Shown here: one piece after another, positions 6,617 through 29,725 of the stretch
Layout of the letters: each line of letters starts with the position of its first letter
How positions within the stretch are numbered: the first letter of the stretch is position 1
IMG/VR virus record: IMGVR_UViG_3300032288_004095
Location: 1 to 47,609 of that record
Origin: a virus
Direction: 5' to 3' (one strand)
DNA: 47,609 bases
The notes under the pieces: generated by a model
Told to the model about the DNA's origin: nothing
The model's database searches: none
What the model saw: only the letters and a program-made list of their open reading frames with translations
Translations under genes and position numbers: made by a program

Positions 6617-7214
6617 CAAATTCTTCTAATTCCCAGTTGTCGTCGTTGGCTATCCAGCTTGAAAAATCTTGTTCCATGGATATGAACTGCTCAAGAACCT
6701 TGAATGCATGGTCCCAGTCTTCGTTTGTTACAACAGGTGTAAACGGTTCGTCATAAACAGTGCCGTGCCCTGAGGCAATTGCGGTTTTGCGACCTGCACG
6801 GGATGTGATTTTTTTGATTCTATCGTCAAATTCCTGGTCATTCCATATTGAACCCTGCACAGCACCACGAATTTTTTTTCTGCAATTTTTCATGCCTGGG
6901 TGATGGCATCCCTCATTTGGCCACAGGCCAGTGGTCTCGTGATGAAGCCATGCACAAATATTGTTTAGAGGATAAAGCTCTGGGTGGTCAGCCAAAATGA
7001 CTCGGCATCTTCTGAAGCCGCCCGGCTTCTTCATGATTGGACGCCAATATCTTAAGAGGCGCTCAAGGTTTCCACGTCTCGGACCACGACCTTTTAATAG
7101 GTCGCCAGTGATTCTTTCCTGTGGTATTGCATCTGGTGGAATAGCAAGTTTCTCGGATGTGTTACCCAGATTTTTTATTATGAGTCTGTCTGGTATGTAG
7201 TTATTTTCACTCAT
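6609..7214 (-). CDS. Conserved phage head-region protein, unknown function
   Basis: A 201-aa protein, stop overlapping the next start by 8 nt. Its core reads RRGNLERLLRYWRPIMKKPG, then FRRCRVILADH, NNICAWLHHETTGLW and CHHPGMKNC. The arrangement (Arg-Leu-Leu-x-Tyr-Trp, then a Cys, then CAWLHH) resembles a short conserved module that I recall in head-region proteins of actinobacterial phages; this is from memory and unverified. The cysteines and histidines could form a metal site. It sits between large virion proteins in a tight, overlapping series, so a structural role is likely. Confidence 0.65.
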   Translation of the reverse strand: MSENNYIPDRLIIKNLGNTSEKLAIPPDAIPQERITGDLLKGRGPRRGNLERLLRYWRPIMKKPGGFRRCRVILADHPELYPLNNICAWLHHETTGLWPNEGCHHPGMKNCRKKIRGAVQGSIWNDQEFDDRIKKITSRAGRKTAIASGHGTVYDEPFTPVVTNEDWDHAFKVLEQFISMEQDFSSWIANDDNWELEEFDA

Positions 7215-12957: not shown

Positions 12958-15516
12958 TTATTGCGAAGGAGACTCTTCGTAACCGTCAATAATTGAACCG
13001 ATTCTTGATGTCAGTTTTTCTCCTGTCGTAGACCAGCTGAAAGTCTTGTCATTTTTGAAGTCCGTATACACATAGCCAAATGGATTTGAGCGGATGCTTG
13101 GGTCGTCAATGTTTTTGTCAACTTCAAGAGTTTTCATTACAAGGTCGTATCCGGCTGCCCGTATTTTTTTTCTTGTTTTCTCTGAGCTTTCAGCAACATT
13201 TTCAGATAGAAGTTTTAGCATTCGTACAGCATTTTCTCTGTTCAATGATTTTCTGTTTGACAAGTACCCGTTGTTTATTAATCCCAAATCATTTGCCATA
13301 AAGGAAAAACCAAACCAGTCTCGCATCTCTTTGTCGGTCATTGGGCCCTCTGGAAGTCCATCTGTTCCATTGCTCAAAACACCTGATTCAATAAGCGAGT
13401 TAACCCTGTGGACAGGGTTTGAAATAGAACCTTTGCCTCCGGAAATTTGCTCCCACAAAGGGACTCCGGTGATTTCTGCTATATACCCATCGGTACTTCC
13501 TGCCGCTGAGTCGCTTGACATCGAACCAACTGGGCCTGGTTCGATAAATGGAGCAACACCTGTTTTTGATTTTGAACCACTAAAGCTCACTTGTCTTTCT
13601 TCTAAAAGCTTGAAGAAGTTTTTCAAGTCGTCGTAGGTTGGAAAGGCTTGTGCGTAGTCTGAATCTTTTCCCAATCTGTCAATCATTTGCTCAGCAATAG
13701 ACTCCCGTTCGTCTTGCGAAATTGACCAAATCAGTGGTGGGTCTTGGCCTATTTCAATTTTCCAACCATCAAGGGTGGATGTTATTTTTATGTCATTATT
13801 TTTGTTCAATTTTTTATTTGAATCTTTGAAATAATTCTCAAAATTGTTGTAATTTATAAGTTCTTCATCCACACCATTGAGACCCATGAAGTAGATTCCA
13901 GCCCTACGCATATCAAATGCTCTGTATTGTTCTTTTGCGGGATTGTTGCTTTCGCCTTTTAGGACTGAAAGAATGTAGTCGGCTGGTGTTCTGCCCAACA
14001 TCCCATAACCAGTTTTTTCAAGTAGTTCGTTTTTTTTGAGGTTTTCATCAACCTGTTTTTCAATCAATGGTTGTATGTCGTTTGTCATTAGCCAGAAGTC
14101 AAACCAATCAGTTGGTTCCCCTTCTGAAAAATTGCTAAACCCAAATATCTCGCCGTATTGGTTATTCAGCAAAGAAGGTCTATCCGTGTTGGTATCTTCC
14201 GGGCTAGATGAAATCCATGAATAAAGTGGGTTCGCAGAAATTGAGGTTCCAAATTTACCCCTTTGGTCAACAACTCCATTTTTTAGGTTGGTATTTAAAA
14301 GTTGACCCAAAGATGAAATATTTCCGGATGCACCTGTATTTTCTTGGTCTTTATACTTGGCCTGCTTGGTGTTGTTGATGTCTCCTGGGTTATCCCAGTA
14401 GTCATTATGATTGAACTTAATTCCACCATCAGCCAATGACTGTTGCATCAAAAGTAGAGATTCAAACTCTTTTTTAAGTCCAAGAATCTGGGCCGACCTT
14501 GTCATTTTCCAAATTCTCGTAGGGTAGGCAAGCCATGGGTCTTGCCCTGCATCCCAGTTGATGTCTTCAATGTATTTTGATGTTTCAATATCCCACGCAA
14601 GGGCAAGCGCATTTATCTTTATGGCTTCTGCAACATTTTTTAAGAATCTTCTATTCCTCTTCAGCCGCTTCAACGGCTTGCCTGCAATGTTGTATTTTTC
14701 ACCGAAACCAGCACTGCCTCTATCAATTGGGAACATCCACCAGTCGTAGTGGTCGTTGTGTATTTTTCGCCATTGACCAGAATCTGCTAGCTGTCTATGT
14801 TTTGCAAGTTCAAGGGCTTGGTGAGTGACTACAAATCTATCTCCACCATAAGGTGTTGTGTTTATGAACTTTGCCTTCGGGATGGTGCTTTTTGGCAACA
14901 TTGAAGAAGGTCTTTTATATCCTGAAAGAATGTCTGACTGTGGCTCAAAATCTTCTTGGCTGTCCATCGTCTCGTAATAATTTGGGGGAGGAAATTCATA
15001 CGACTCTTCAAAGTTTGGGTCTAGGCCAGCATCTTCAAGATAGGCGCGCCAGGCGTCGTTGTAATCAATTTGAAGCTCTTCTTCTTCCACCTCTGTGAGT
15101 TTGTTGCCGACTTCCGGCGAGCTCATATCGTCAAACTCAAAATCATCAAACAGCTCATCTTGTCCAAGAAGCGATGGAGGTGATTGCTCGTCTATGTCAA
15201 ATTCCGAGTCGGCTACTGGTTCGTCTTTTGAAACTGCACGGTTTACAAAATCTCTAGCTTTTCTTCTTTTTGACCTATTGTTTTCCATTTGCCCGACTGG
15301 GCCGCCCGGAGTTGGGTCAATTACGCCACGTCCTCTGTTAATCGTTGAAATACCCTCAAGAACATATGGGTCGCTGTCTGCGTTTCTTGCAGTTAAAGCG
15401 TTCATATTTCTTGGCGTTCTTCCGATTGCAGTGCCAAGAGCTTTAACGCCTAGGTTGGCGTTAGTTTTTCTATTTGCCCTGTTACCAGATTCTCTAATTT
15501 CAGTTGGTTCGGCCAT
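12958..15516 (-). CDS. Large virion protein with KALG module and two delimiter motifs
   Basis: An 852-aa protein. Residues about 24-70 hold a module (KALGTAIGRTPRNMNALTAR and on) that is almost identical, in protein and DNA, to one in the 3222-aa polyprotein. The module is followed at once by the delimiter GPVGQM (72-77); a second delimiter, GPVGSM, is at 661-666. If both are cut, the products are a short basic leader, a central protein of about 585 residues rich in aromatic residues and acidic near its start, and a C-terminal piece of about 185 residues. No enzymatic motif was recognised. It follows the 497-aa acidic protein by 14 bp. A virion or ejected protein processed by the phage protease is inferred. 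Confidence 0.7.
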   Translation of the reverse strand: MAEPTEIRESGNRANRKTNANLGVKALGTAIGRTPRNMNALTARNADSDPYVLEGISTINRGRGVIDPTPGGPVGQMENNRSKRRKARDFVNRAVSKDEPVADSEFDIDEQSPPSLLGQDELFDDFEFDDMSSPEVGNKLTEVEEEELQIDYNDAWRAYLEDAGLDPNFEESYEFPPPNYYETMDSQEDFEPQSDILSGYKRPSSMLPKSTIPKAKFINTTPYGGDRFVVTHQALELAKHRQLADSGQWRKIHNDHYDWWMFPIDRGSAGFGEKYNIAGKPLKRLKRNRRFLKNVAEAIKINALALAWDIETSKYIEDINWDAGQDPWLAYPTRIWKMTRSAQILGLKKEFESLLLMQQSLADGGIKFNHNDYWDNPGDINNTKQAKYKDQENTGASGNISSLGQLLNTNLKNGVVDQRGKFGTSISANPLYSWISSSPEDTNTDRPSLLNNQYGEIFGFSNFSEGEPTDWFDFWLMTNDIQPLIEKQVDENLKKNELLEKTGYGMLGRTPADYILSVLKGESNNPAKEQYRAFDMRRAGIYFMGLNGVDEELINYNNFENYFKDSNKKLNKNNDIKITSTLDGWKIEIGQDPPLIWSISQDERESIAEQMIDRLGKDSDYAQAFPTYDDLKNFFKLLEERQVSFSGSKSKTGVAPFIEPGPVGSMSSDSAAGSTDGYIAEITGVPLWEQISGGKGSISNPVHRVNSLIESGVLSNGTDGLPEGPMTDKEMRDWFGFSFMANDLGLINNGYLSNRKSLNRENAVRMLKLLSENVAESSEKTRKKIRAAGYDLVMKTLEVDKNIDDPSIRSNPFGYVYTDFKNDKTFSWSTTGEKLTSRIGSIIDGYEESPSQ
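13519..13536 (-). repeat. Delimiter motif GPVGSM in the 852-aa protein
   Basis: These 18 bases encode GPVGSM at residues 661-666, preceded by PFIEP and followed by a Ser/Asp/Gly-rich linker. It matches the consensus found throughout the 3222-aa polyprotein. Confidence 0.6.
15286..15303 (-). repeat. Delimiter motif GPVGQM in the 852-aa protein
   Basis: These 18 bases encode GPVGQM at residues 72-77, directly after the KALG module (ending IDPTPG) and before a basic stretch, NNRSKRRKARDF. It matches the consensus of the polyprotein delimiters. Confidence 0.65.
15311..15429 (-). repeat. KALG module DNA repeat, copy 1
   Basis: This 119-bp segment matches 25680-25798 in the same orientation with only three differences found by eye. 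It encodes the RTPRNMNA...GRGVIDPTP part of the module in the 852-aa protein. Differences fall at silent or conservative positions. Flanking DNA diverges at once on both sides. Confidence 0.85.
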
Positions 15517-17728: not shown

Positions 17729-20700
17729 CTACCCTCTTTCTCGTGGAACCGTAATTCCAGGTATGTTGTATCTTGGAAAGTTAGAGGAGTAAAGCATTGT
17801 TGGGTCTTCAAGTGAAACTCCGCTTCTTGTCTTTTCCATTGCGTCAATCTGCGAAACACCATCAACATCTCTGTTTTCAAGCATTTGTCTTCTGAGTTGC
17901 AAGTAGAACCAGTTTCTTCGTTTTTGAAGTTTTGGAAGATATGACACGAGCTTTCTGACTTCGGCTTTTTTCTTATCTCTAGCATCACCAGCATGAGTTC
18001 TCATTCTTGACAAGTACTCAAGTCTTCCAATGATTGTGTCTAGAGCTGCGTCTGAAGCCGTCCATCCCGAGAAAAGCATGTATTCAGATGCCTCTTCAGC
18101 TCCACCGTAAGGAAGAACTGCGTCACCCTCCTCGTATTCTCTTATAGCTGCCTCTGCGTTACCCTTTGTTACTCTTGCACCATTTCTGCGGACTGGGTCA
18201 TTTGACACATATCTGCTTCCGGGGATTCTTCTCATTGCTCCAGATGGACCGTCAGAGTCAGAGAATGGGAGTTCTGGCTGTTCGTTTTCGTAAACTTCAG
18301 ACTCAATTATTGGATTTGGATTTCCTTGAGGCCTGCTTGGTGGTTTTTGTTCAAAAACTTTTGGGGGAGCCCAAGGATTGAACGATGTGTCACCCATGTC
18401 CATTTTTTTAGCTCCAGCAAGAGCTGCGAGCCTGTTATCAAATGAACGACTAACTACAACATTCCTGTTTGCCGTGTCAATTATTACCCATTTGCCATCT
18501 TGGGTTTGTTTGATGTCATATCTTTGTGGAACAAAACGTCTGGCCATTGTTCCAACAGCTCCAGTACTACCTCCATCATCTCCATATGGAGGGCTATTGA
18601 ACAACCTGTTGAGTTCTTCAATTTCCCTAGCCGTATCAACATCAATGTCTGGCTCTGTTGTTTCTTGTCCATAAGAGAAATACCCAGCGTAAGGACCGCC
18701 AAGGTCATCTATTTCTTCTACAGAGCGTTCGTTTCCGTTTGCATCATAAAGTATGTTCTTATTTTTTTCAGTAGCAGCTTTAAACCAATCGGAGAATCCG
18801 TCTCCAAGTTCCTGTCTTCTTCTGGAGATGAGGCGCTCAAATGTCTTACGTCTGTCGTTTTGAATCATTCGCTCTGCTCGTTCAAATGGGGTCATCAAAG
18901 ATGCCATTCTGGCTTCGATTATTTCTTTGCCTTTTTTGGAATAATCAACGACTTGGTTTGCTGATATATCCAAATCTCCGGCAACAGAAAGTATGTCGTA
19001 AGGCATTCCGTCAAGTTCACCCATCTCTTCACCGCTCATCTGCGAGTCAAATATTCTTTGGGTAAGATAGTGATGGATGTCAATCAAGTCATCGTCTGTT
19101 GGGTTTTCCCAGTCTCTATCTTCAATCGTGGAGAATCTTTTCCCTATTTGTTCGGCGACAGTCTTCCAGTTATCATCTCCATAAACCTCATAAAGCCGTC
19201 TGTCAACATGCCTGCTACCGCTAATCGGATTTTCTGGCATTGAACCAGAAGACATGAGCCCAGTTGGGCCTTGAGGAGGGTTCTGCTGTATTTCCCTAAT
19301 TGCTGCTTGTGCGTCTTCTGAGTCAAAGTATCTTCTTTGAATTTCTCTGCCTACAGATTTGAGTTCTTTCATAAGGGCTGATTTAGCAGCTCTATCTTTG
19401 CGGTGTGGTCTTCCGTAAGAACCAAACAGATTCTCCATCGCTTCATTCCATGCATTTACAAGCTCATCATCAGACATGTCTGAAACATTCTTGCCAGACA
19501 TGGCTCCAACAGGACCGAAGTCATCGTACGGAAGATTCATTTCCCTATATGCGTAATCGACATTTCTAATCAGCTCTCTTGGGCTCATGTCTGAGTCGAT
19601 GCGCATTTCAAGTTCGTCAAATGTAATGTCGCCAGATTCAAGCTGGCTTATAATTTCATCAACAGAATCAAGCGAGCGTATTTCGTTTGCTCTTTCTCTG
19701 TCTACAACATTTAGTCTTCTTCTTATGTTCTGCTGACTGGTTGAATGTCTCTGTGCAAGCTGAGCTATTGCTTGTCCCTCTGGAACCGAGGCGAGCAAAT
19801 CTGTCAATTCATTATAAATCTGTATGTTGTAAGAATCGTCAATTACTCTTTCTTGCGCATCACGAGGTCTTACATATCTTCCCATTTTGCCGAAAGGAGA
19901 GGAATTTAGCTCTGGTTCAAATGGCATCATTCCTGAAATCTCATATTCGCCATTGTCAAGTCTTGTAATAGAAACACCAAACTCATCAACATACGGACCG
20001 TTTGCTGTCTTCATTATTCTTTCAAGTGCAGCATATCTGTCGAGAACGTCATTGAGTTGCGAATCATTTCTATTAGCTGAGCTAAGTATTCTAGAAAGAA
20101 GTCTTTGCGATTCAGCTTTTCTTTGAGCGTATGGCATTGAGGCATATGTTGCGTCGTGCTTGTTGGGTTTCCAAAACTCTGTTGGGGAATAGTTTGGAAC
20201 ACGTGCCGCATTTAATCCAATTGAACCAACTGGGCCGGTGTCGAAGCTGTTGAATTGATTCTGCCTGCTTGCTCTTGCAAGTTTTTCTTTTGCTCTGTTA
20301 TATGCTGCGATGTCTGAAGCGCTTGCTGTTGCAAACCCTCTTCTGTCTACCCCAATTCTGCGTCCAAGGTCGTCTAGCGAATACGGCAAAGCTGTAGGGA
20401 TTGGTTCAGAACTTGACCTCACTGCAATCATGTATGGGTCAAATATCTTTCTTTGGCCATCCGCTTTGTCCGTTGCATGCAACGATACATTGCCATCTGT
20501 GCTTTTAACAAACTTGACGAGTTCAACTGCATAGACTTTATTTCCGTACGGGAACTCTGCATCAATTACATCCCTGTCAGCTGTTGCTAGAGTGCTTGCA
20601 ACGGTGCCCTGATTATCGTCAAGAGATATAACCAGCGACCTTTCTCGCATTCCTCTTCTAAGAGAAGTTGTCTGTGCAATTATTTCAGCAGTTCTTTTTT

Positions 20701-23700
20701 GTCTTTCTGTTTGTCTTTCTTTTGGCCTAGCTTGCTCTTCGCGTGGTGGAGTTCTTTCTTGCCCACCAGGCTGTTCCCCTCTTGGGGTCCTGTTACTAGA
20801 ATCTCCTCCAGTCGGTCTGCCTGTTGATTCATTTCGAGGCCTACGTTCGCCTTCTGGCTCTCTGCGCGGTCTTCTTTGACCTGTCTGACCTTGTGTATCG
20901 GCTCCTGGTTTTGGTTTCTCAGACTTTCGGCCGTACATTCTGTCGGTTCTGAAATTCTTTTCTTTTCCATCTTTTTCATCAATGCCAACGATGTATGCTG
21001 CAATGGGTTCGCCATCTCTTCCAAAACGCTCTTCGTATCTTGGTTCAGTGACTGTTCGCTTTTCCGGTCTGTCTGCATCTGGCTTCAGGTATTCAAAAGA
21101 AATTCCAAGTCCGGAATCATTTGCATCATTAACCGCTTTCTTAATGTCTGATTCGGTGAAGTTTTTTCCAAGGATTATTTCAGTGTCTGTTTCAATAACT
21201 GGCGCAGATGAATCAGAACCAAGACCGTAAAGCCCAAGCTTCTCGTACTCCGCCTTGAGCTCTTGTGCGGTTATTGTTTCTCCAGCTGCTGTTCTGATGT
21301 CTGCTTCAATTTCCCATGGTTTTGCCGAAATAAAGACACCATCAGTTGCTGGATGCCTTCCTCTTTGGGTTCTAATCTTTTCTACTGTTTCATCAAATAT
21401 TTCGCCTAGCTCTTCTTGTGGCCAGTCTTCATATGAGAACAAGTCCCCAGCTACTGGGTGATTCCATTTGATTAAATTGCCATTTTCGTCTTCCGCAACC
21501 AAAAATACCGGACCATTAGAATTTGAGCCAACATTTTTGTGTCTGTACTTTGTTATCTCTCCGGTCAACTTGTTTACATAAGTAGAAACAAGTTTTCCAT
21601 CGTCTTCAACTTCTGATTTATCAATACTTGGTGCACTAACACCGGCCGTTGGAGAACTCGGTCTAGAAGAAGCTTGGCCGGCTTGTCTGGCTGCTCTGTT
21701 CTCTGCCATTCTCTGCTTTGTGAGAGCACGTAGTCTGTCCCACTGCTCTGGCATCAATCCACCATCAATATCGTACCTATACAATATTTTTTCAATCTCT
21801 GCGTCATCTTGTTCAAGCGTTCGTGCAGCATTCACAACACGCTTGGCATCTTCTGGGTCTGCGCCTAGCATTTCGCCAGTTTCTTTATTTACTTTAAGTA
21901 CAGCTTCTTCGCCTGGTGCAAGAGTGTATCCACCGTCTCCACTTTCAAACTTATCAATCAATGATGATGCATACGACCATTGTCTATCTGACAGGCCACC
22001 ATTTTTTGCGTACTGGTAATACATGTCGCTAAGTACTGAGTAATTTTTTTCTGCACCAGTTAGGTCTTTTTTGTCTTTTGAGTCAACAATCGCTCTTAGA
22101 GCATTGAAATCATCACTATTTCTAAGCGTGTGAATTTTTTCTATAACCGAAGGACCAAAGTCTGGAGTATTTGGACTTTTTGTAACAGACAAATCGTCAC
22201 TACCCTGGAATCTCCACTTCCACGAGTCTTTGGTCCAGAATTTTTCTTCGGGGCCACTTTCAAGTCTTCTCAACTTCTTGTTTCTGGCTACTCGCTTTGC
22301 ATTTCTTTCACCCTCGTCCCAGCTTTCAGACATATCAGCAGTTGCAAAAACCGTGCCGCCGAGTCTGAAGTACGAAGGCTCGCCATCGTATCCAGCACGG
22401 TCATTCCATGAAACAACTCTCAAACCTTCTCTTGGAGAAGTTTGAATTGGTATAGAACGCAATTCTTCAGTTCCATCTGGATTTAGGAATAAACCTTGTG
22501 GGTACATTTCATCGTCAAGGAACATTCCACGTTCAGCAGCTCTAGCCATTGCCTGAGCTTCAGTTTGATTTACGAATGAATACTCTGGAGTATCAACAAC
22601 CATGTAGTTGTATCCACCATCTTCTGCCAGAAGTTTTCTACCTAGCATTTCATGAAGTTCTGGTTGGTTGAATCCACGCACCCTGCGCAAGTAAGGCTTT
22701 TCTTGCATTGGAACGCCGTCAGAAAGGTCTTCGGTGAAGTCGTATTCTTCTACCAGGCCGTCATCTGCATTGGCGTAAATGCGTACTTTTTTGTTCTTTC
22801 TAATCGCCATTTCGCCAACAGGACCAGGCGAGAAGTATTCATCTATTTCGTTGCCGAGCTCTGTCTTGCCGAGGTATTTTTTGTAGACACTTCCGTCGCT
22901 AGCATCTGCTTCAATGAAAAATCCTTCGTCGTCGACTCCATATCTCGTGTTTGAAACAGATGGTGGCTTCGATGTTGAGCCGTCTGCTTTTCTGAGAGCG
23001 CGCAAAGACTTTTCTAATCTTGAATCAACATCATCAACTCTCAAATTAAATTCTTTTGCAATATCTACATTTGTTGCGCCGTAAAGTTTTTGAGACATTA
23101 TGTCTCTGTCTGTTCCGTCAAGCAGGTAACCGTGTTCTCTCATCAGGTAGCGCATCTCAGAGCGCTCTGGCGTCTCTGTAGCAGAGAGAATGGTGGCCTG
23201 TGCTTTTACAATTTGAATGACATCATTTCTTGAGATATCGTTGTTTTTTGCTATTTCGTCAATTGAAGAATTTCCAAAACTTGAATAAACATTTCTCATC
23301 AGCTTTTCTGGGTAGGAACTCTCTTCATTATTGTTATTGCTGATTATTCTGTTTATTGCTTTTATTGCACCAGAAGGACCGTCTGGGGCGTTGATGCCAG
23401 AATAAGGTTCTCCAGTCATTGAGAAATTGCTCAAGAAACTATTGATTATGTTTGGTAGATATTCGTCAAGCTCTGCGTCATCTGAGTTGTTTTGCTTTAA
23501 GTAACTCTTCTTGCGACCGGTTGAGTCAAAAACTTCAGATGCAAAACCATCCGGAAGAGCTCTTTCGTAAGAGGACATCTTGCCAACAGGACCAGAGCCG
23601 AGGCCTCTTCTAGCAATTTCCTGCTTCACATTATTTAGTGATTCTTCTGAAGCGGTTAATATTGGAAATCCAAAATTTATACCGTTTTGGATTTCTTCCA

Positions 23701-26700
23701 AATCTTCAAAATCTCTATTTCTACGCGCAATTCTTCTTTCCCGGAGTAGTTCTGCGAGGTCATTTTTCCAACGCTGAAAAACTTCTTCAATATCTTCTTT
23801 TATTGCTAAAAGCGATTCGTTGTCAAGCTTGGATATTTCTTCTTTGATTTTATTCTTAGCAATAGAACTTATCAATATTGATTCATCTGCCGTTTCAAGT
23901 TCGTCTACAAAATCAATATCTGATTCTGTTTCTCTACCTAAAATAGCTCTTGTCAAAGAATCGGCAAGAGCATTGTTCTCTTCATCAGAGCGTTTTTTGT
24001 ATGACCACGTATCTTCAGGTTTTGGCGGAGATTCAAACTTTAGATATTCTGCTGGTGGTTCATCAGCGGGGTCAGTGATTGAGGTTGGTCTTGCCGGAAC
24101 TGCTCTTGAGTCAGGGAGGTCTCTAGAAAATGTTCTTAACTCTTCAAGCTCAATCTCTGGTTTAGAAACTGCGGTTCCACGCAATCGTGGGCGCTCTGGT
24201 GTTGCAGGAGTTTCTACTGCTGTTCCGCGAAGTCTTCCAGTGTATGGAGTGGGGGTTGGTGGAACTGCACGTGTGTCAGGAAGCTCTCTAGAAAAAGTGG
24301 GTATCTCTTCAATTTCAATTCCTGGTTTGTCCAAACCTCTACCACGAAGTCTTGATGAACCTGGAGTAGCTGGTTCTATAACTGGTGGAGTAACCTCTAT
24401 TCTTGGGCGCCCCGTAGCTGCCGGTTTGTCCAAACTTGTTCCACGAAGTCTTGATGTACCAGGAGTTTCTGGTTTTATCACCGGTGGTGTGACTTCTATT
24501 CTTGGTCGTTCGACGACAGAAGGCTTACTTCCATCACCTCTATCAAAAATTACATCTTCTTCATCAAACAGACGACCATCATCTTCGTCGTCGGTTCCAA
24601 AACGCACTACTCCGAACTCGTCGCCAAAATCAATGATTTCATCGTCGCCCGACATTCTGCCAACTGGGGCGCTGTAGAAAATTCTGCTAAAAGGTTTTTC
24701 GCCTAGGCTTCTATCTTGACCTTTTAAATCGTCGACAGACTCGGCTGCCCTTATTGACTCCGTCCATTCCGTAGTTGCCATTGCGCCAACTGGCCCATTG
24801 TCAATCACCATGGAGTCTTGCAACTTTCTCATTGCAATTTGTTCTTGCCGTCTTATTGTTTGTCTGTCGGTACCAAGTCTTGCTGCTGCTTCTTGAAGAG
24901 TTTCCCCATCAAGTCTTCTCTTCATCAAATCTGTTTGTTCGTCAGTAAGAGTCGAGGCAGGGTCATCAAGCATTCTTCTTGTCACTCTGTTTGGACTGTT
25001 CTCATCCATGCCACGAAGTTTTGACATGTGTCTAAGCTCAAGCTGTCTTGCTTTTTGTCTTGAAACCTTAAATCTTGATGCTGCTTCTTCAAGCGAAATT
25101 CCCTCGTTTTCTCTTGCAAGGAATATCTGTCTTCCAATCTTTGCTTCTCGTAGAAGTCGTTTTTCTCTATTTGAAAGATTTGAGTCGCTTGGGGTGGACG
25201 CCATTGCACCAACTGGGCCACCACCTGGTCTAGAAGGAACAGGCCTTGCAGGCGCTCTTCCTGGAACTGGCATTGGCTCTTGGGTGCGACGCGGCTCTCT
25301 TGCAGGCTGCCTTGTTGGAGCTGGGACTCTTTCAGGCTGTCTTGCTGGCTGTTTTGCCGGTTCTCTTCTTGGAACGGGAACAGGCTCTGGAAGAGTTCTT
25401 GGAACACGGTCTGGTTTGGGAACTGGATATCTTTCTGGTTGCCGCTCTGGCACTTTTTCAGGGGTTTTTTCTGGAACTTTTTCCGGAATCCTTGCTGGCC
25501 TTGCTGGCTTTATGGTTGGCTTTACAGGAGTTACTTCTGGAATCTCTTCTGGAACTTCAATTGGGTTTGGGACTGCAGGCATGTCTGCTTCGCCTGGTCT
25601 CTTAGCGCGTCTTGGTTTAGTTGCGCCTCTTCTGCCTCGAGACCTCGGTGCTTTTGGGATATCAAAATCACTCCCTGGTGTTGGGTCAATTACGCCACGT
25701 CCTCTGTTAATCGTTGAAATTCCCTCAAGAACATACGGGTCGCTGTCTGCGTTTCTTGCAGTGAAAGCGTTCATATTTCTTGGCGTTCTTCCGATTGCGC
25801 CACCTAATGCTTTTTGTTCAAAAGAATCAAGCACATTTGACAAAGCTTTATACGCAGCAACACTCACTTTGTCAATGTCTGGAATAACAATTCCGTTTTC
25901 CAAAACTTTTACATCAAATGAATGGTATTCAGCAATTGTGTTGATGATTTCAAAAGCCTCAATTTTCTCTGCATTATCTTCTGGCTCCAAGAAAAGATGT
26001 TCGCCTCTATTTGCAGACTTAAACTCTTCAAGTGTGCTTAGATGATTTGGAACCGAGCATGATGTTTCACCTTTTGCGCAATCGTCGCAACATGCTTCAT
26101 GTGGAACAGCAGCCGAAGACATTGCATCGTAGAGGCTTCCGTTTGTTTGCGGCATTGATATGACCATTGCACTAGGTGTTCCACCATCACCAATTCGACT
26201 ACCGTTTGAGTTGCTTGTAGGTATGTAGACGGTTTCTGGCTTTACTTGTTGCGCCGTTCCGAACATAAACTCGTCACCATCAAAGTGATAAGCAACTCTT
26301 AGTGTCTCAACAGACTGGCCGGCACCCATCTCAAAAATTGCAATGTCGTTGTCGGCGTTAACGAGTCTTACCGCTCCGCCAAAGTGTGAAGCAAGTGCTC
26401 TTGTTAGGTCAGCGGCTCTTCCAACTACGGAGTTTTCTGCACTGTTCATTGCCTCGTAAATAGCGCTTACGTGATTTTTTGTTTCTGAGCTTTCGCTGTC
26501 GTCTTTTTTCTTTGTATTGCTATAACGCTCGAGAAGTCTTCTTCCTTTTGCAGCAAGTTTTGCAGCGTCTTCCATATTCTTTGGAACTGGCTCACCCCAT
26601 GCAGCCGCCGAAAGAGCAAGTCTTGTTGGTTCTCCATTTGGCTTCTTCATTGGGCCAGATGGGTTTGTAAAAAATCTTGTGAGGAATGAACCCTTGCGAC

Positions 26701-27397
26701 GCATCTTTTCTGGTGTGTCAGCTGGACCCTTTACTCCAGGCTTTAGATTTGCGCCTTCTGTTCTCTTGAAATGAGCACGGCCAGCTGCAGTCAAACCACC
26801 CTTTGGGTCTCTTAGAGGTTGGCGCTTTACATCTATTCCATCTTTGTTTTCGTTAACAGCTTCATCCGATTTAATTGAGATGGTGCCTGTCAGCTGGTTG
26901 GCTCCATGAAGAACGGGAGAAACCTCGTACAGCTCAACTTCTTTCAAAAGGTTTGCCTGCTGGGTTGGGTCAAAAACTGCATCAAGAGTTTTGTAGCCTA
27001 TTGACCACTCCTGCTCAAGACCAAAGAATGACACATTTGCAAATGCCTCACGGCCTCTTTCGGCTTTGAGGTTAAATTGCACTCTTGCATAAAGGCCACC
27101 TATTCCGGCCTTTCTCATCTTCGCTGGAAGACGAGGGTCATTTGGACCAACTTCATAGATTTCCAAAACTTTGCCGATTGGCTCATTCCAATTGTGGCCC
27201 CATACAACCCTGGGCTTTCTTCTTTTCAGGGAATTTGTAAAACATCCTGGGAGGCAAATATCGCCGACTGAGTCCTTGTTACCAACACCAGCAGCGAAGC
27301 ACTCGACAATGCCAAGAGCCTCATCAATATTGAACTGCCCTGTTAAGGACTTGTATTCGTAGTCAGCTGCTGTTTCGTGTGTGTTAGTCATGGTCAC
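17729..27397 (-). CDS. Giant polyprotein: N-terminal HK97-type prohead protease plus many delimiter-separated modules
   Basis: A 3222-aa protein with an AGGTGA ribosome binding site just before its ATG. Residues 1-175 are a prohead protease of the HK97 gp4 type: GNKDSVGDICLPGCF, a WGHNWNEPIGKV segment with likely catalytic His68, WSIGY with likely Ser132, and VELYEVSPVLHGAN. Residues about 191-293 resemble DUF6321 (GLTAAGRAHFKR...RRKGSF). A Cys cluster lies near 437, then a KALG module (about 535-580) and a Pro/Arg-rich linker (590-726). Then come twelve motifs of the form GPVGxM, which separate modules including pairs of helix-turn-helix domains. Such proteases normally are 150-250 aa and cleave scaffold or capsid, so the 3000-residue extension is exceptional. 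Self-processing at the motifs is inferred, not shown. Confidence 0.85.
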   Translation of the reverse strand: MTMTNTHETAADYEYKSLTGQFNIDEALGIVECFAAGVGNKDSVGDICLPGCFTNSLKRRKPRVVWGHNWNEPIGKVLEIYEVGPNDPRLPAKMRKAGIGGLYARVQFNLKAERGREAFANVSFFGLEQEWSIGYKTLDAVFDPTQQANLLKEVELYEVSPVLHGANQLTGTISIKSDEAVNENKDGIDVKRQPLRDPKGGLTAAGRAHFKRTEGANLKPGVKGPADTPEKMRRKGSFLTRFFTNPSGPMKKPNGEPTRLALSAAAWGEPVPKNMEDAAKLAAKGRRLLERYSNTKKKDDSESSETKNHVSAIYEAMNSAENSVVGRAADLTRALASHFGGAVRLVNADNDIAIFEMGAGQSVETLRVAYHFDGDEFMFGTAQQVKPETVYIPTSNSNGSRIGDGGTPSAMVISMPQTNGSLYDAMSSAAVPHEACCDDCAKGETSCSVPNHLSTLEEFKSANRGEHLFLEPEDNAEKIEAFEIINTIAEYHSFDVKVLENGIVIPDIDKVSVAAYKALSNVLDSFEQKALGGAIGRTPRNMNAFTARNADSDPYVLEGISTINRGRGVIDPTPGSDFDIPKAPRSRGRRGATKPRRAKRPGEADMPAVPNPIEVPEEIPEVTPVKPTIKPARPARIPEKVPEKTPEKVPERQPERYPVPKPDRVPRTLPEPVPVPRREPAKQPARQPERVPAPTRQPAREPRRTQEPMPVPGRAPARPVPSRPGGGPVGAMASTPSDSNLSNREKRLLREAKIGRQIFLARENEGISLEEAASRFKVSRQKARQLELRHMSKLRGMDENSPNRVTRRMLDDPASTLTDEQTDLMKRRLDGETLQEAAARLGTDRQTIRRQEQIAMRKLQDSMVIDNGPVGAMATTEWTESIRAAESVDDLKGQDRSLGEKPFSRIFYSAPVGRMSGDDEIIDFGDEFGVVRFGTDDEDDGRLFDEEDVIFDRGDGSKPSVVERPRIEVTPPVIKPETPGTSRLRGTSLDKPAATGRPRIEVTPPVIEPATPGSSRLRGRGLDKPGIEIEEIPTFSRELPDTRAVPPTPTPYTGRLRGTAVETPATPERPRLRGTAVSKPEIELEELRTFSRDLPDSRAVPARPTSITDPADEPPAEYLKFESPPKPEDTWSYKKRSDEENNALADSLTRAILGRETESDIDFVDELETADESILISSIAKNKIKEEISKLDNESLLAIKEDIEEVFQRWKNDLAELLRERRIARRNRDFEDLEEIQNGINFGFPILTASEESLNNVKQEIARRGLGSGPVGKMSSYERALPDGFASEVFDSTGRKKSYLKQNNSDDAELDEYLPNIINSFLSNFSMTGEPYSGINAPDGPSGAIKAINRIISNNNNEESSYPEKLMRNVYSSFGNSSIDEIAKNNDISRNDVIQIVKAQATILSATETPERSEMRYLMREHGYLLDGTDRDIMSQKLYGATNVDIAKEFNLRVDDVDSRLEKSLRALRKADGSTSKPPSVSNTRYGVDDEGFFIEADASDGSVYKKYLGKTELGNEIDEYFSPGPVGEMAIRKNKKVRIYANADDGLVEEYDFTEDLSDGVPMQEKPYLRRVRGFNQPELHEMLGRKLLAEDGGYNYMVVDTPEYSFVNQTEAQAMARAAERGMFLDDEMYPQGLFLNPDGTEELRSIPIQTSPREGLRVVSWNDRAGYDGEPSYFRLGGTVFATADMSESWDEGERNAKRVARNKKLRRLESGPEEKFWTKDSWKWRFQGSDDLSVTKSPNTPDFGPSVIEKIHTLRNSDDFNALRAIVDSKDKKDLTGAEKNYSVLSDMYYQYAKNGGLSDRQWSYASSLIDKFESGDGGYTLAPGEEAVLKVNKETGEMLGADPEDAKRVVNAARTLEQDDAEIEKILYRYDIDGGLMPEQWDRLRALTKQRMAENRAARQAGQASSRPSSPTAGVSAPSIDKSEVEDDGKLVSTYVNKLTGEITKYRHKNVGSNSNGPVFLVAEDENGNLIKWNHPVAGDLFSYEDWPQEELGEIFDETVEKIRTQRGRHPATDGVFISAKPWEIEADIRTAAGETITAQELKAEYEKLGLYGLGSDSSAPVIETDTEIILGKNFTESDIKKAVNDANDSGLGISFEYLKPDADRPEKRTVTEPRYEERFGRDGEPIAAYIVGIDEKDGKEKNFRTDRMYGRKSEKPKPGADTQGQTGQRRPRREPEGERRPRNESTGRPTGGDSSNRTPRGEQPGGQERTPPREEQARPKERQTERQKRTAEIIAQTTSLRRGMRERSLVISLDDNQGTVASTLATADRDVIDAEFPYGNKVYAVELVKFVKSTDGNVSLHATDKADGQRKIFDPYMIAVRSSSEPIPTALPYSLDDLGRRIGVDRRGFATASASDIAAYNRAKEKLARASRQNQFNSFDTGPVGSIGLNAARVPNYSPTEFWKPNKHDATYASMPYAQRKAESQRLLSRILSSANRNDSQLNDVLDRYAALERIMKTANGPYVDEFGVSITRLDNGEYEISGMMPFEPELNSSPFGKMGRYVRPRDAQERVIDDSYNIQIYNELTDLLASVPEGQAIAQLAQRHSTSQQNIRRRLNVVDRERANEIRSLDSVDEIISQLESGDITFDELEMRIDSDMSPRELIRNVDYAYREMNLPYDDFGPVGAMSGKNVSDMSDDELVNAWNEAMENLFGSYGRPHRKDRAAKSALMKELKSVGREIQRRYFDSEDAQAAIREIQQNPPQGPTGLMSSGSMPENPISGSRHVDRRLYEVYGDDNWKTVAEQIGKRFSTIEDRDWENPTDDDLIDIHHYLTQRIFDSQMSGEEMGELDGMPYDILSVAGDLDISANQVVDYSKKGKEIIEARMASLMTPFERAERMIQNDRRKTFERLISRRRQELGDGFSDWFKAATEKNKNILYDANGNERSVEEIDDLGGPYAGYFSYGQETTEPDIDVDTAREIEELNRLFNSPPYGDDGGSTGAVGTMARRFVPQRYDIKQTQDGKWVIIDTANRNVVVSRSFDNRLAALAGAKKMDMGDTSFNPWAPPKVFEQKPPSRPQGNPNPIIESEVYENEQPELPFSDSDGPSGAMRRIPGSRYVSNDPVRRNGARVTKGNAEAAIREYEEGDAVLPYGGAEEASEYMLFSGWTASDAALDTIIGRLEYLSRMRTHAGDARDKKKAEVRKLVSYLPKLQKRRNWFYLQLRRQMLENRDVDGVSQIDAMEKTRSGVSLEDPTMLYSSNFPRYNIPGITVPRERG
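19517..19882 (-). other. Polyprotein module 2506-2627 with helix-turn-helix
   Basis: About 122 residues between SPFGKM and GPVGAM. The segment AIAQLAQRHSTSQQNIRRRL has the helix-turn-recognition-helix pattern of a small DNA-binding domain, followed by an acidic helical tail. This is the third delimiter-bounded module with a helix-turn-helix-like sequence. Confidence 0.45.
19901..20218 (-). other. Polyprotein module 2394-2499 between delimiters
   Basis: About 106 residues bounded by GPVGSI and SPFGKM. It contains a helical stretch ending RKAESQRLLSRILSSANR and a short beta hairpin (YVDEFGVSITRLDNGEYEIS). No named domain was recognised; it is listed because it is a clean, compact unit between two delimiters. 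Confidence 0.4.
22826..23362 (-). other. Polyprotein module 1346-1524 with two helix-turn-helix units
   Basis: Bounded by GPSGAI and GPVGEM. Two helix-turn-helix-like segments are visible: SIDEIAKNNDISRNDVIQIV and, further on, TNVDIAKEFNLRVDDVDSRL followed by EKSLRALRK, which resembles the end of a sigma-70 region 4-like domain. A beta-rich tail (EGFFIEADASDGSVYKKYLG) follows. Confidence 0.5.
24080..24510 (-). repeat. Tandem Pro-rich repeats inside the polyprotein
   Basis: Two kinds of unit repeat here: RPRIEVTPPVI followed by SRLRGxxLDKP (two clear copies), shorter GRLRGTAVETP-type copies, and an acidic unit, EIExEExxTFSRxLPDxRAVP (two copies). The region is low in large hydrophobic residues and probably an extended linker. 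It lies within the piece between delimiters at 910 and 1269. Confidence 0.6.
24797..25201 (-). other. Polyprotein module 733-867: tandem sigma-70 region 4-like helix-turn-helix pair
   Basis: The 135 residues between two identical GPVGAM motifs hold two similar units. The first includes SLEEAASRFKVSRQKARQLE followed by LRHMSKLR; the second TLQEAAARLGTDRQTIRRQE followed by QIAMRKLQ. Both match the sigma-70 region 4 pattern (T-L-E-E-I-A..L-G-V-S-R-..-R-Q-I-E...A-L-R-K-L-R), which binds promoter -35 elements. That such a unit lies precisely between delimiters inside a protease precursor suggests it is released as a separate protein. Confidence 0.65.
25202..25620 (-). repeat. Pro/Arg/Glu-rich linker of the polyprotein
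   Basis: About 140 residues of irregular P-E-K-x-P, P-E-R-x-P and P-V-P-x-R repeats (for example IPEKVPEKTPEKVPERQPER) ending at the first delimiter. It is probably an extended, disordered spacer between the protease half and the helix-turn-helix modules. Confidence 0.65.
25680..25798 (-). repeat. KALG module DNA repeat, copy 2
   Basis: This 119-bp segment is the partner of 15311-15429, same orientation, 10.4 kb away, three differences by eye. Here it encodes GRTPRNMNAFTARNADSDPY and onward in the polyprotein, just before the Pro-rich linker. The module is not directly followed by a delimiter in this copy. Confidence 0.85.
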
Positions 27398-27451: not shown

Positions 27452-27484
27452 TTTATATAAACTTAGTTGTGTTTATATAAACTA
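27452..27484. promoter_or_regulatory. Twin TTTATATAAAC boxes upstream of the polyprotein gene
   Basis: TTTATATAAACT occurs twice, at 27452-27463 and 27472-27483, exactly 20 bp apart (two helical turns). The second lies within the 12-bp palindrome GTTTATATAAAC at 27471-27482, which overlaps the portal stop codon. They sit about 55-85 bp before the polyprotein start in an 84-bp AT-rich gap. A pair of phage-specific promoter or operator boxes is likely; each also contains a TATATAA -10-like core. Confidence 0.5.
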
Positions 27485-29725
27485 GCCTTTATCAAACCTC
27501 AACCTACATCTGCAGTTGATTGTTAGGTGCGGTGGGGCAAATGGGTCTCCAGGGAATCTGAGCAAGTTGCCACCCATATCAAACGCTTCCAAAACACCAA
27601 CCGATTTGCCATGCAGGCCGGCGTGCTCTGGTCTAACTTTTGGGTCTTTTTCCGTAATCCATGTCTTTGTCATTGCGCCAATTGAACGCCCAGACAAATA
27701 AGTCCCTGCGTTGTATGCAGTTTGACCTTCATGCTCGGCAATAAGTCTCTTGCGCTTCATCAAGAGATTTATAAAAATCGCCACGAGAGCAGCTTTGAGC
27801 ATTCCAACTTTATCTTCTCCGTCGGACATTGATGATGCAACAAGAACGGCTGCGGCTACCTCTGCTGCTGTAGTGGAGTTCACATTCTCCATGCGCTCCA
27901 TCTGTGAATCAAGATGCTCTTTTACGGCATCTTCATCCATCTCTGCCTGCATTGATGCTTCCTGAGAAACAACACTTGAAGCATCATTCATTATTCCGCT
28001 AAGAATTGGTCTTATGTCTTCGTTGAGCTGTTTGTTCCATACGGCGATGTCAAAAATTGTTTCTGGGTCAAGCGACTTTGACTCAATATTCTTTCGTGCT
28101 TTGCTCCCAGCAGCTTTTTCCATGATTACTCTCTGCTGTCTTTCAAAGAATCTCTCAAGTGACGCATCAAGTATTTCAATCCATCTATCGGATGATTCTT
28201 CTGCTTTAAAATCCCACTCGTCAGATATGTAGGAGCCAGCTCCTTCAGCTTTCGTTTGTGGTCCACCCATCGCCGTTGCTTGCTGGGCTGCAATTGCTTC
28301 TGCTGTCAAGGCTGCGGTCATGCCTTCAGCTGGACCCCCCTGTGGTGCTACTTGAGGACCAAATCCAGGTACTGGCATTTCTTGTGGAGTTGCAGTTGCC
28401 CCAGGTGTTGGGGGCATTCCGGGAACTGGTGGCATCCCAGGAACTGGCGCACCTCCTCCCATCATGTCAAGTTGTCCTTGTTGTGCTGGTTCAAACTTCT
28501 TGTTCGTGTATCCGATTGGTGTCAAGTTTGGATTAGCAAGCATTGCGTCCATCAATTCGGAGTCAATCTTCCCGCGCCCAGCACCCTCTCTGTATTCGTT
28601 TCCGCTTATCAAGCCACTTTGATATTCGTTAAGCAGGTATCTATCTCGTTCTTGTTTGTAGAGCACTAGAACAGGAACATCGGTAACGTCAAAGTCAACA
28701 TAGTATTTTGAATGAAGTTCGTCTAATCCACGAGCCAATGTTTCTAGGTGTGGGAGCATGGTTTCGTTCCAAAAAACTTTATGTTCTTCTGCTGCGTTAC
28801 TGAATGTTCTTCCGGAGGCATTGCCAATAACAGATTCTGGAACGCCAAAAGCTGCAAGAATTTCTTCTTTTTGTATTTGACGCATTTGTACATAGTTTGC
28901 ATCTCGTGGCGATTGACCTGTATCAACAAAATCAACACCTTCATCTGAAGAAACAACAGTTACTGCTCCAGCTCTGTTTATGTTTCCTCTAAAACGACTT
29001 CTCAATTCGTCTTTATCATCGTCGTCAATTTCTCCTCTAACAACAAGAAGACCACCAGGTCTTCCGTCATTAAGCAAGAAGTTTCTGTTGTAAATCTTTG
29101 ACAAGTTCTCAATTTCTATAGCAATACCGGCAGCTTCCATTGGGGTTAATGAAAGATATGGGTCTAAAGGGTGTGGCTTTCTAATCCAAACAACATCTTC
29201 TGGTTTTAGAATTACTTTTGTTCCGTTGCGCATGTCAACTTCAAAACCCGAAACAAATTTTCTTGGGTCTGGTATTGGCGCAGTATGTTGTGGTGGCAAA
29301 AGTTGAAGAGCAATTAGCTGACCATCTCTGCCTCTTACTTTTTCAATGAATGCACCACGAGAAGACATGAGCAACTGCGAAGAGAGTCTGTATCTAAAAA
29401 CAAAAGAGTTTTCACCCATGTTTGATTTGGTGTTTAGTAAGTTGAGAATGCTCTCACCTGACTCTCGAATAATTTTTCCAGTTGGACTGTTGTTTTCACG
29501 CAAGATGGCTGGGAGTCTTGATTGGTTTCCTGCAATTGCGTCAATGCACCTATTGACCCAAGTAACCTTTTGAAAACCCTCGCGGTAAGCTCTTTCTATA
29601 TCCCAAGAGTCTCTGTATGGCTTTCCAGCCATTGAAGGGTTGAACGCAACCGGCGCTCCTGGTCCAAGCGCAGACTTCTGCTGTGACTGGTTAATAGACT
29701 TATTTTGCGACGAATTCCAAGCCAT
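27482..29725 (-). CDS. Portal protein fused to a C-terminal MuF domain
   Basis: A 747-aa protein. Residues 1-400 match the HK97-type portal family: WVNRCIDAIAGNQSRLPA near 55, LQLLPPQHT, IRKPHPLDPYLSLTPMEAAG, LNDGRPGGLLVVRG, and EEILAAFGVPESVIGNAS near 300. Portals form the dodecameric DNA gate at one capsid vertex. A Pro/Gly-rich linker with repeats of PVPGMPP (about 425-470) follows. The last 60 residues are a MuF domain: KDPKVRPEHAGLHGKSVG, FPGDPFAPPHLTINCRCRLR. MuF proteins are usually separate or fused to portals in some phages; here the fusion is direct. It lies 9 bp downstream of a small membrane protein gene and diverges from the terminase. Confidence 0.92.
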   Translation of the reverse strand: MAWNSSQNKSINQSQQKSALGPGAPVAFNPSMAGKPYRDSWDIERAYREGFQKVTWVNRCIDAIAGNQSRLPAILRENNSPTGKIIRESGESILNLLNTKSNMGENSFVFRYRLSSQLLMSSRGAFIEKVRGRDGQLIALQLLPPQHTAPIPDPRKFVSGFEVDMRNGTKVILKPEDVVWIRKPHPLDPYLSLTPMEAAGIAIEIENLSKIYNRNFLLNDGRPGGLLVVRGEIDDDDKDELRSRFRGNINRAGAVTVVSSDEGVDFVDTGQSPRDANYVQMRQIQKEEILAAFGVPESVIGNASGRTFSNAAEEHKVFWNETMLPHLETLARGLDELHSKYYVDFDVTDVPVLVLYKQERDRYLLNEYQSGLISGNEYREGAGRGKIDSELMDAMLANPNLTPIGYTNKKFEPAQQGQLDMMGGGAPVPGMPPVPGMPPTPGATATPQEMPVPGFGPQVAPQGGPAEGMTAALTAEAIAAQQATAMGGPQTKAEGAGSYISDEWDFKAEESSDRWIEILDASLERFFERQQRVIMEKAAGSKARKNIESKSLDPETIFDIAVWNKQLNEDIRPILSGIMNDASSVVSQEASMQAEMDEDAVKEHLDSQMERMENVNSTTAAEVAAAVLVASSMSDGEDKVGMLKAALVAIFINLLMKRKRLIAEHEGQTAYNAGTYLSGRSIGAMTKTWITEKDPKVRPEHAGLHGKSVGVLEAFDMGGNLLRFPGDPFAPPHLTINCRCRLRFDKG

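Follow-up and report, generated by a model that had tools for sequence, protein, structure and literature searches.

RNA-virus polyproteins are precursors that are cut at repeated short sites by their own protease. In the phages T4, phiKZ and SPN3US a single prohead protease recognises a short motif in several head proteins and cuts there, removing propeptides and core proteins (PMC5694885, PMC10052503, PMC9958956). The sites have the form P3-x-Glu, with a P3 that varies between related prohead proteases (SxE in phiKZ, AxE in SPN3US; PMC5694885), and the report on SPN3US counts 14 sites, spread over nine separate proteins; at 13 of these sites an N-terminal propeptide is removed (PMC10052503). 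In 2017 Iyer et al. likened the polyvalent proteins of phages to RNA-virus polyproteins and proposed that embedded peptidases, assemblin-like ones included, release their domains, the assemblin-like peptidase being always C-terminal where that paper deals with it (PMC5512222). Here we describe a 47,609-nucleotide stretch of viral DNA (IMG/VR record IMGVR_UViG_3300032288_004095, positions 1 to 47,609; hereafter the window) in which one open reading frame (ORF) of 3222 amino acids (aa) carries a Peptidase_S78 prohead protease followed by twelve copies of a six-residue motif. We read this motif as a proteolytic site in head-cargo polyproteins, most likely cut by the fused S78 protease and releasing many packaged proteins, with a probability of about 0.68. 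The titles and abstract openings of the open-licence literature on prohead-protease polyproteins, cleavage motifs and fusions gave no account of such a motif array; in PMC7689252 the word polyprotein stands, in the part concerned, for a 1606-aa polymerase.

The protease part of the ORF matches Peptidase_S78 with 43.4 bits (Pfam cut-off 21) and, among the PHROGs, phrog_80, head maturation protease (2.4e-30), which bears out a preliminary description that had placed an HK97-type prohead protease in the first 175 residues of a 9.7-kb frame; the frame also stood, and its strand, which had not been stated, is minus. His68 and Ser132, which we take to be the catalytic His and Ser, are invariant in all 34 aligned S78 domains (the window, 32 of 80 related loci and Gordonia phage DalanDe). 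Among cultured phages, those of Gordonia and Brevibacterium match best, and a comparison of the protease domain with solved structures gave no match. Past the protease, the pattern [GAS][PA]xGx[MI] occurs twelve times (Table 1), with Gly4 invariant and a last residue that is Met in ten copies and Ile in two. The strict form GPxGx[MI], searched in six frames over the whole window, has 12 matches, nine in the 3222-aa ORF, two in an 852-aa ORF and one in a 1751-aa ORF, and zero elsewhere. The looser pattern matches three times in each of the latter two ORFs and once in the portal protein (SPTGKI), there probably by chance. In the window's 18 loose matches, Gly4 is encoded by GGC five times, GGA five, GGT four and GGG four, a variation of codons that points to selection at the protein level. 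Twelve motifs with an invariant Gly4, a final Met or Ile and varied codons had been described beforehand, and the pattern and codon counts agree on every point; the motif had also been said to occur twice each in the 852- and 1751-aa proteins, and the strict form is present twice in the former and once in the latter.

The motif is recovered when none is assumed. In a de novo search (gapped-pattern enrichment in chosen giant ORFs) the top pattern of the three window ORFs was GP.G.M, seen 10 times versus 0.05 expected (score 85), and the best pattern in eight shuffled window sets scored 13-21. Relatives gave motifs of the same build in other letters, so that the giant head-cluster ORFs (up to 5347 aa) show the dialects PVGxM, PTASM, TEAGM, ISGRM and ITGxM. 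The top patterns were PVG.M in the relative G001 (11 seen versus 0.05 expected), ITG.M in G002 (7 versus 0.05), EAGM in G003 (17 versus 0.33), I.GRM in G004 (15 versus 0.09) and GP..SM in L013. In the window and G001-G004 the motif scores were 56-124, versus 13-27 for the best pattern in 40 shuffles of those five sets, and five other head-cluster ORFs of G001 had no enriched pattern (nothing above score 16). From a second panel, of 80 capsid loci, we took the upstream ORFs that reached 700 aa; 26 were left once duplicates had been removed, and a Met-type motif came first or second in eight of them: L114 (GP.G.M), L117 (the same as G001), L118 (TASM), L119 (the same as G004, ISG.M), L120 (VSG.M, second after PKP..V), L128 (the same as G002, I.G.M), L131 (ITG.M) and L145 (ISG.M). 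It was not top in L124 (VA.EE), L138 (GVSG) and L192 (DL.GA), and in the first two of these an [IVL][ST]GxM form is visible only on directed search.

Some distant phages have other repeats in their giant ORFs (STRS in L162, G[ML]RS in L192, GFASS in L054, GMRS in L078), of which only STRS, the top pattern of L162, is statistically prominent. The top patterns of L054 (GF.S, score 20) and L078 (GM.S, 19) are no stronger than those in shuffles of other sets, and these two dialects therefore rest on inspection, as does the repeat of L192; the repeats of these three are of a G[MLF][RA]S-like form. All four may be versions of this system in which the site has diverged further.

The relatives come from a scan of virus contigs with the protease domain, the best 80 of 333 being kept. 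Long extensions of the protease ORF were found in L001 (3190 aa), L006 (2391, open), L007 and L008 (2929 each), L013 (3615, open) and L014 (3626, open); the protease ORFs of L054, L057 and L078 have 1600-2100 aa and most of the remaining ones about 550-1050 aa, several close relatives ending at contig ends. The 3222-aa frame is thus not an accident of assembly, since homologous ORFs exist in L001, on a 174-kb record, and in L007 and L008. With the capsid protein of a Gordonia phage as query, a capsid gene was found in four of the five records searched (G001-G004) and none in the window, whose sequence probably stops short of it. On the minus strand of G001 (174 kb), ORFs that measure 250 aa or more from stop to stop follow one another in the order portal, 3190 (the protease polyprotein), 515, 870, 1759, 689, 1469 and 317 aa, and a 5347-aa ORF that adjoins the capsid gene and has seven strict GPxGx[MI] matches plus near matches. 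The four motif-bearing giant ORFs of G001 together have 33 pattern matches, of which one or more are due to chance, and G003 has five such ORFs (4580, 1870, 2815, 1849 and 5251 aa), so the extent first proposed, at least sixteen sites in three precursors, was too low.

The dialects change in concert within each phage. The window, L001 and L007 have most motif positions in common, with single residues varying, and L013 and L014 have a dialect of their own at several of the same borders. Within the family of the 5347-aa ORF, border 3619 reads SGPAGAM in G001, DEPTASM in L118 and EAMAGM in G003; in the same order, border 4595 reads SGPVGKM, MGPTASM and SAEAGM, border 4751 DSPTGSM, SEPTASM and AQPEAGM, and border 5060 DGPVGKV, SDPTASM and VAEAGM. 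Over ten borders, the identity across six motif positions was 3.98 within a phage (n=111), 2.42 at the same border between phages (n=24) and 2.30 at different borders between phages (n=216), and none of 20,000 label permutations reached the observed within-phage value (largest 3.649). The 60 residues past the motif gave a mean local score of 88.4 for the same border between phages versus 22.3 within a phage. The ten borders were picked by hand, the condition being that a site could be recognised in the alignment of two or more lineages, and selection by motif favours this result; the de novo search is independent of that selection. Left out were residues 727, 910, 1269, 1340, 2500 and 3050 of the window and 232, 979, 1155, 1303, 1696, 2381, 2914, 3001, 3305 and 4424 of G001; the label 'W' covered the window at six borders and G001 at four, and the label 'L013' covered L013 at six and L118 at four. 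Such concerted divergence between conserved flanks suggests that each phage has a common recogniser. In the alignment of homologues, a check proposed in the preliminary description, motif positions were kept at orthologous borders and flanking modules conserved, the letters of the motif being phage-specific.

We collected 159 pattern matches from 11 phages to look at the anatomy of the site; not all are independent, the window and G001 as well as G004 and L145 being related, and a few are chance matches. P5 is Pro, Ile, Val, Ala or Thr, P3 is Gly in 117 and Ala in 41, and P1 is Met in 146 and Ile or Val in 13. These three positions are fixed by the patterns used, although the de novo search also gave the Met. 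The residue after the Met was left free, and it is Ser in 53, Ala in 39, Gly in 32 and Thr in 5, that is, small in 129 of 159 against a background of 29%, and never Pro. The common layout is P3-x-P1 followed by a small residue, and each phage has [G/A]-x-M in several of its giant ORFs. Two such motifs stand back to back, as if duplicated, in the 3464-aa ORF of G004 (residues 596-609, AISGRMTSISGRM).

A generic form of the motif, [IVLP][STVIA][GA]xM, was then counted by class of protein. Past residue 300 of the protease ORFs it occurs 63 times versus 12.2 expected (48 of the 80 loci, 36 after deduplication and a length filter, 24 with at least one), and in ORFs upstream of the capsid gene 87 times versus 16.4 (41 deduplicated, 15 with at least one); 27 portals have 9 versus 9.2. 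Among the upstream ORFs, 4-11 generic motifs are present in 10 of the 12 that reach 1690 aa, and any at all in 5 of the 29 shorter ones (under 1300 aa); most of the long ones end at the 10-kb flank and some of the short ones at contig ends. The two long ORFs that are free of the motif, in L162 and L192, carry the other repeats mentioned above. The strict motif is absent from the P687, P1450, P497, 317-aa and capsid ORFs of G001. The motif thus goes with fusion and not with membership of the head. Generic matches inside the protease domain (16 versus 1.3) were ascribed to NPSGPM in the conserved DUF6321 and were not counted as sites.

The giant ORFs are very long multidomain proteins with varied enzymatic and regulatory domains, a sigma-70 region 4 in the window and several others in the relatives. 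Between the motifs of G001 we found Clp_N, Nudix, Zeta_toxin and helix-turn-helix (HTH) modules, between those of G003 Nudix, Zeta_toxin, RNase_T and GerE HTH, and between those of G004 DnaJ, Nudix, Zeta_toxin and RNase_T (Zeta_toxin is the Pfam name of a P-loop kinase fold, and toxicity is not claimed). By analogy with what has been proposed for polyvalent proteins, it is plausible that these modules serve functions in early infection. Of 65 matches in seven ORFs one lies inside a recognised Pfam domain, where about five would be expected from coverage (hand count), a suggestive though not strong sign that the motifs avoid recognised domains.

That the repeated motif is the processing signal of a polyprotein strategy is very likely, and that it is cut by the fused protease is likely as judged from the sequences, from which we infer that cleavage takes place, at which bond and by the S78 domain, and that the products are packaged and injected. 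In the sequence of events that we propose, the N-terminal S78 protease would be drawn into the prohead, towing a string of modules (in the window a sigma-70 region 4-like HTH and unassigned domains, in relatives DnaJ, Clp_N, Nudix, a zeta-like kinase and a DnaQ-type exonuclease). Once the prohead had closed, the protease would cut after [G/A]-x-M before a small residue, in the window after G-P-V-G-x-M before Ala or Ser, both within the tail that it carries itself and in the products of the remaining giant head ORFs, and the released proteins would be packaged and probably injected along with the DNA. The residues ahead of [G/A]-x-M would drift between phages, all sites of one phage following. 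We would bet, if with some reserve, on an uncultured lineage of tailed phages that makes much of its head cargo as polyproteins, with several precursors of about 850-5300 aa, dozens of [G/A]-x-M sites before a small residue, a fused prohead protease and a dialect that co-evolves with it. The proposal that GPVGxM is the cleavage signature of this phage finds indirect support in that the motif behaves like a specific signal between modules, recognised in trans (the concerted change, the small next residue and the absence of the strict motif from five head ORFs of G001); that the S78 domain would make the cut is a likely reading, which faces a rival with HExxH and a capsid protein without the motif.

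This rival, the main one though on balance unlikely, keeps the motifs as cleavage sites and makes the enzyme a zincin metallopeptidase of the 1751-aa family. HExxH, identified by pattern only, is present in this family in the window and in G001, G002, G003 and G004, and, of 21 protease loci inspected, 18 have it in plus-strand ORFs of at least 400 aa that lie in the cluster; it was seen in none of L013 (cut short), L017 and L069, and the last two, with 10.2 and 8.8 kb seen downstream, are also without motif arrays. Autoprocessing by metallopeptidase domains of polyvalent proteins was among the proposals of Iyer et al. (PMC5512222). However, L051, L053 and L070 combine HExxH with small ORFs and no arrays, so the array may be linked to the fusion rather than to the zincin, and prohead proteases are established head-processing enzymes in the accounts of PMC9958956 and PMC5694885, the S78 domain here being itself fused to the motif-bearing modules. 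Over the 33 loci to which these five belong, this does not tell the two enzymes apart; we hold the S78 domain to be the first candidate because it is fused to the cargo and keeps His68 and Ser132 in all 34 copies. Any single trans-acting partner would explain the concerted divergence equally, and the motif might then be a binding or sorting tag for one phage protein (capsid, scaffold or chaperone) and no cut site. We find this improbable, since unfused head proteins should then carry the tag as well, and the strict motif is missing from five G001 ORFs and the generic one mostly from the shorter ORFs upstream of the capsid gene; the small residue after the Met, moreover, fits a scissile bond. 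Linkers with a structural role, or repeats stemming from the duplication of modules, would need no recognition in trans, and in a structure model of 743 residues of the window the five sites have a predicted local distance difference test (pLDDT) below 50, as have 412 of the 743 residues; four of the sites are in coil, and the one at 2628 overlaps a five-residue helix. Yet the flanks of different sites in one phage are unrelated, as the local scores given above show, and a simple linker should not vary jointly over different ORFs, which makes this reading very improbable. Scarcely credible, finally, is an internal translation start, with the Met codon as start and the upstream Gly codons mimicking a ribosome-binding site: the motif does mostly end in ATG and the modules often open with MA or MS, but the codons of the motif vary, four of the 18 loose window matches have Ile codons (ATA once, ATT three times) instead of ATG, the spacing from Gly to Met differs between phages (EAGM versus ISGRM), and it is at the amino-acid level that the upstream Pro, Val, Ile and Ser are conserved.

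Several observations, besides the wide presence of HExxH, weigh against cleavage by the fused protease or against the sites themselves. The capsid protein is the expected substrate of an S78 protease, and the phage-specific motif was not seen in the aligned N-terminal regions of capsid proteins, in which the generic motif is not enriched either (3 versus 5.6 expected in 32 proteins). Near the end of the propeptide region the aligned capsids of the uncultured phages have NGANM, which has only the [G/A]-x-M core in common and is often followed by Pro; as degenerate capsid sites, neither NGANM nor A-[AGS]-S-[ML]-T could be supported. The unfused 317-aa ORF of G001 contains GPVGIS, a near motif that lacks the final Met or Ile, and one of the seven strict matches of the 5347-aa ORF, at residue 3305, is an apparent site due to chance. 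A loose match at residue 2291 of G004 lies inside an HTH_23 domain, the sole exception among the recognised modules. Among inserts of at least 25 aa in three pairwise alignments, residues 1170-1274 of the window end exactly at the motif Met and the G001 counterpart ends three residues off, but these are the only two within three residues, other insert ends lying 14 to 530 residues from a motif. Two structure models were of low confidence (mean pLDDT 48.3 and 44.6), and nothing could be learned from the second. In a control of 13 other ORFs of G001 an unrelated LH..PR repeat scored 191, more than any of the motifs did; a cleavage site cannot be called from a high score by itself.

In the surroundings of the protease ORF, the large terminase gene lies beyond the portal-MuF gene on the opposite strand. 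The Asp-rich element of the table takes forms like NPxTARDADxDxxVLEGxPxxNxGRGxPD or DGDxDxxVQDGTxxERPA and occurs in many giant ORFs, often ahead of the first motif; in the window it is also found at 15304-15444 (-) and about 9902-9991 (-). A loose pattern for it had 35 matches in the giant ORFs versus 9.8 in shuffles, and it is possibly a capsid-targeting tag or a calcium-binding element. A Cys-bounded element, C(P/G)...FT...C, was seen in three different proteins of the head cluster, at residue 134 of the ORF at 4556-6619, residue 186 of that at 226-4578 and residue 214 of that at 7634-12889, all on the minus strand, as well as in giant ORFs of G001-G004. At 15531-17024 (-) there is a 497-aa protein with an acidic tract and one region about 55-67% identical in many loci; it had no PHROG match and a weak PepSY-like similarity, and it partly resembles a 166-aa ORF and, on visual comparison, the final part of DalanDe gp27. 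A 345-aa open frame at 25008-26045 (+), antisense to the Pro-rich part of the polyprotein, is most likely an effect of composition. In a scan of bacterial genomes the protease part (query residues 2-187) was found in two contigs of one gammaproteobacterial metagenome-assembled genome (MAG; L193, L194). A further 11 genomes or MAGs (L195-L205), several of them Acidobacteriaceae, gave a match to the DUF6321 part, within residues 157-299.

Table 1. Position of the protease polyprotein, its motifs and associated features in the window.
Feature	Position	Strand	Basis or remark
3222-aa protease-polyprotein ORF	17729..27397 (27397 -> 17729)	(-)	GTG start
Peptidase_S78 prohead protease domain, residues 30-173	26879..27310	(-)	Pfam 5.2e-11; His68 and Ser132 invariant
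DUF6321 domain, residues 196-267	26597..26812	(-)	Pfam 4.2e-29
Asp-rich DxDxD element, about residues 533-580 (borders by eye)	25658..25801	(-)	also in 852-aa and other giant ORFs
GPVGAM, residue 727	25202..25219	(-)	pattern match
Sigma-70 region 4 domain, residues 816-860, in the module bounded by motifs 727 and 868	24818..24952	(-)	Pfam
GPVGAM, residue 868	24779..24796	(-)	pattern match
APVGRM, residue 910	24653..24670	(-)	pattern match
GPVGKM, residue 1269	23576..23593	(-)	pattern match
GPSGAI, residue 1340	23363..23380	(-)	pattern match
GPVGEM, residue 1525	22808..22825	(-)	pattern match
GPVGSI, residue 2388	20219..20236	(-)	pattern match
SPFGKM, residue 2500	19883..19900	(-)	pattern match
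GPVGAM, residue 2628	19499..19516	(-)	pattern match
GPTGLM, residue 2710	19253..19270	(-)	pattern match
GAVGTM, residue 2946	18545..18562	(-)	pattern match
GPSGAM, residue 3050	18233..18250	(-)	pattern match
Portal protein with C-terminal Mu-F domain	27482..29725	(-)	immediately upstream of protease ORF
852-aa ORF: DxDxD element, then GPVGQM (72), GASGNI (395, weak), GPVGSM (661)	12958..15516	(-)	
GPVGQM in 852-aa ORF	15286..15303	(-)	pattern match
GPVGSM in 852-aa ORF	13519..13536	(-)	pattern match
1751-aa ORF: two HExxH, SAVGAM (307), SPVGAI (997), GPLGKM (1055)	7634..12889	(-)	
HEMNH, residue 677 of 1751-aa ORF	10847..10861	(-)	pattern; candidate zincin active site
GPLGKM in 1751-aa ORF	9710..9727	(-)	pattern match
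HEFGH, residue 1383 of 1751-aa ORF	8729..8743	(-)	pattern; candidate zincin active site

If our reading is true, it provides a cleavage code for phage head proteins that can be read from sequence and a set of naturally occurring prohead proteases in which specificity has moved in step with a large number of substrates. Giant phage ORFs that resist interpretation could be divided into modules for annotation and for testing one by one, and the idea of 2017 that polyvalent proteins are processed like viral polyproteins would become directly testable. Should the co-evolution of dialect and protease also be true, then substrates, module borders and enzyme specificity could all be read from sequence alone.

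The working principle would be that of RNA-virus polyproteins, with no homology claimed, in a DNA phage that has several precursors and processes head cargo rather than replication proteins. Among cultured phages the likeness is with Bendigovirus-type actinophages (Gordonia phage DalanDe, GMA6), the protease being about 40% and the capsid protein 48-49% identical; gp27 of DalanDe is a 1633-aa fusion too, but has its protease domain in the C-terminal third and no match to the generic Met-type motif. As in T4, phiKZ and SPN3US, a short P3-x-P1 motif with a fixed P1 and a variable P3 recurs in several head proteins; P1 is Glu there and apparently Met in the present phages, the capsid protein is here without the motif, and against the separate proteins of SPN3US stand the 33 matches, chance included, in four ORFs of G001. 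With polyvalent proteins these ORFs share huge size, many domains and an embedded peptidase (S78, and HExxH by pattern only), but the S78 domain lies at the N-terminal residues 30-173 of 3222 and not at the C terminus, and the parts of PMC5512222 that cover release by peptidases describe no delimiting cleavage motif. The preliminary description had taken a polyprotein strategy of this size in a tailed phage as new; this overrates the concept, as release from polyvalent proteins was proposed in 2017 (PMC5512222). The arrays are a variant of polyvalent proteins combined with prohead processing, unusual in its scale.

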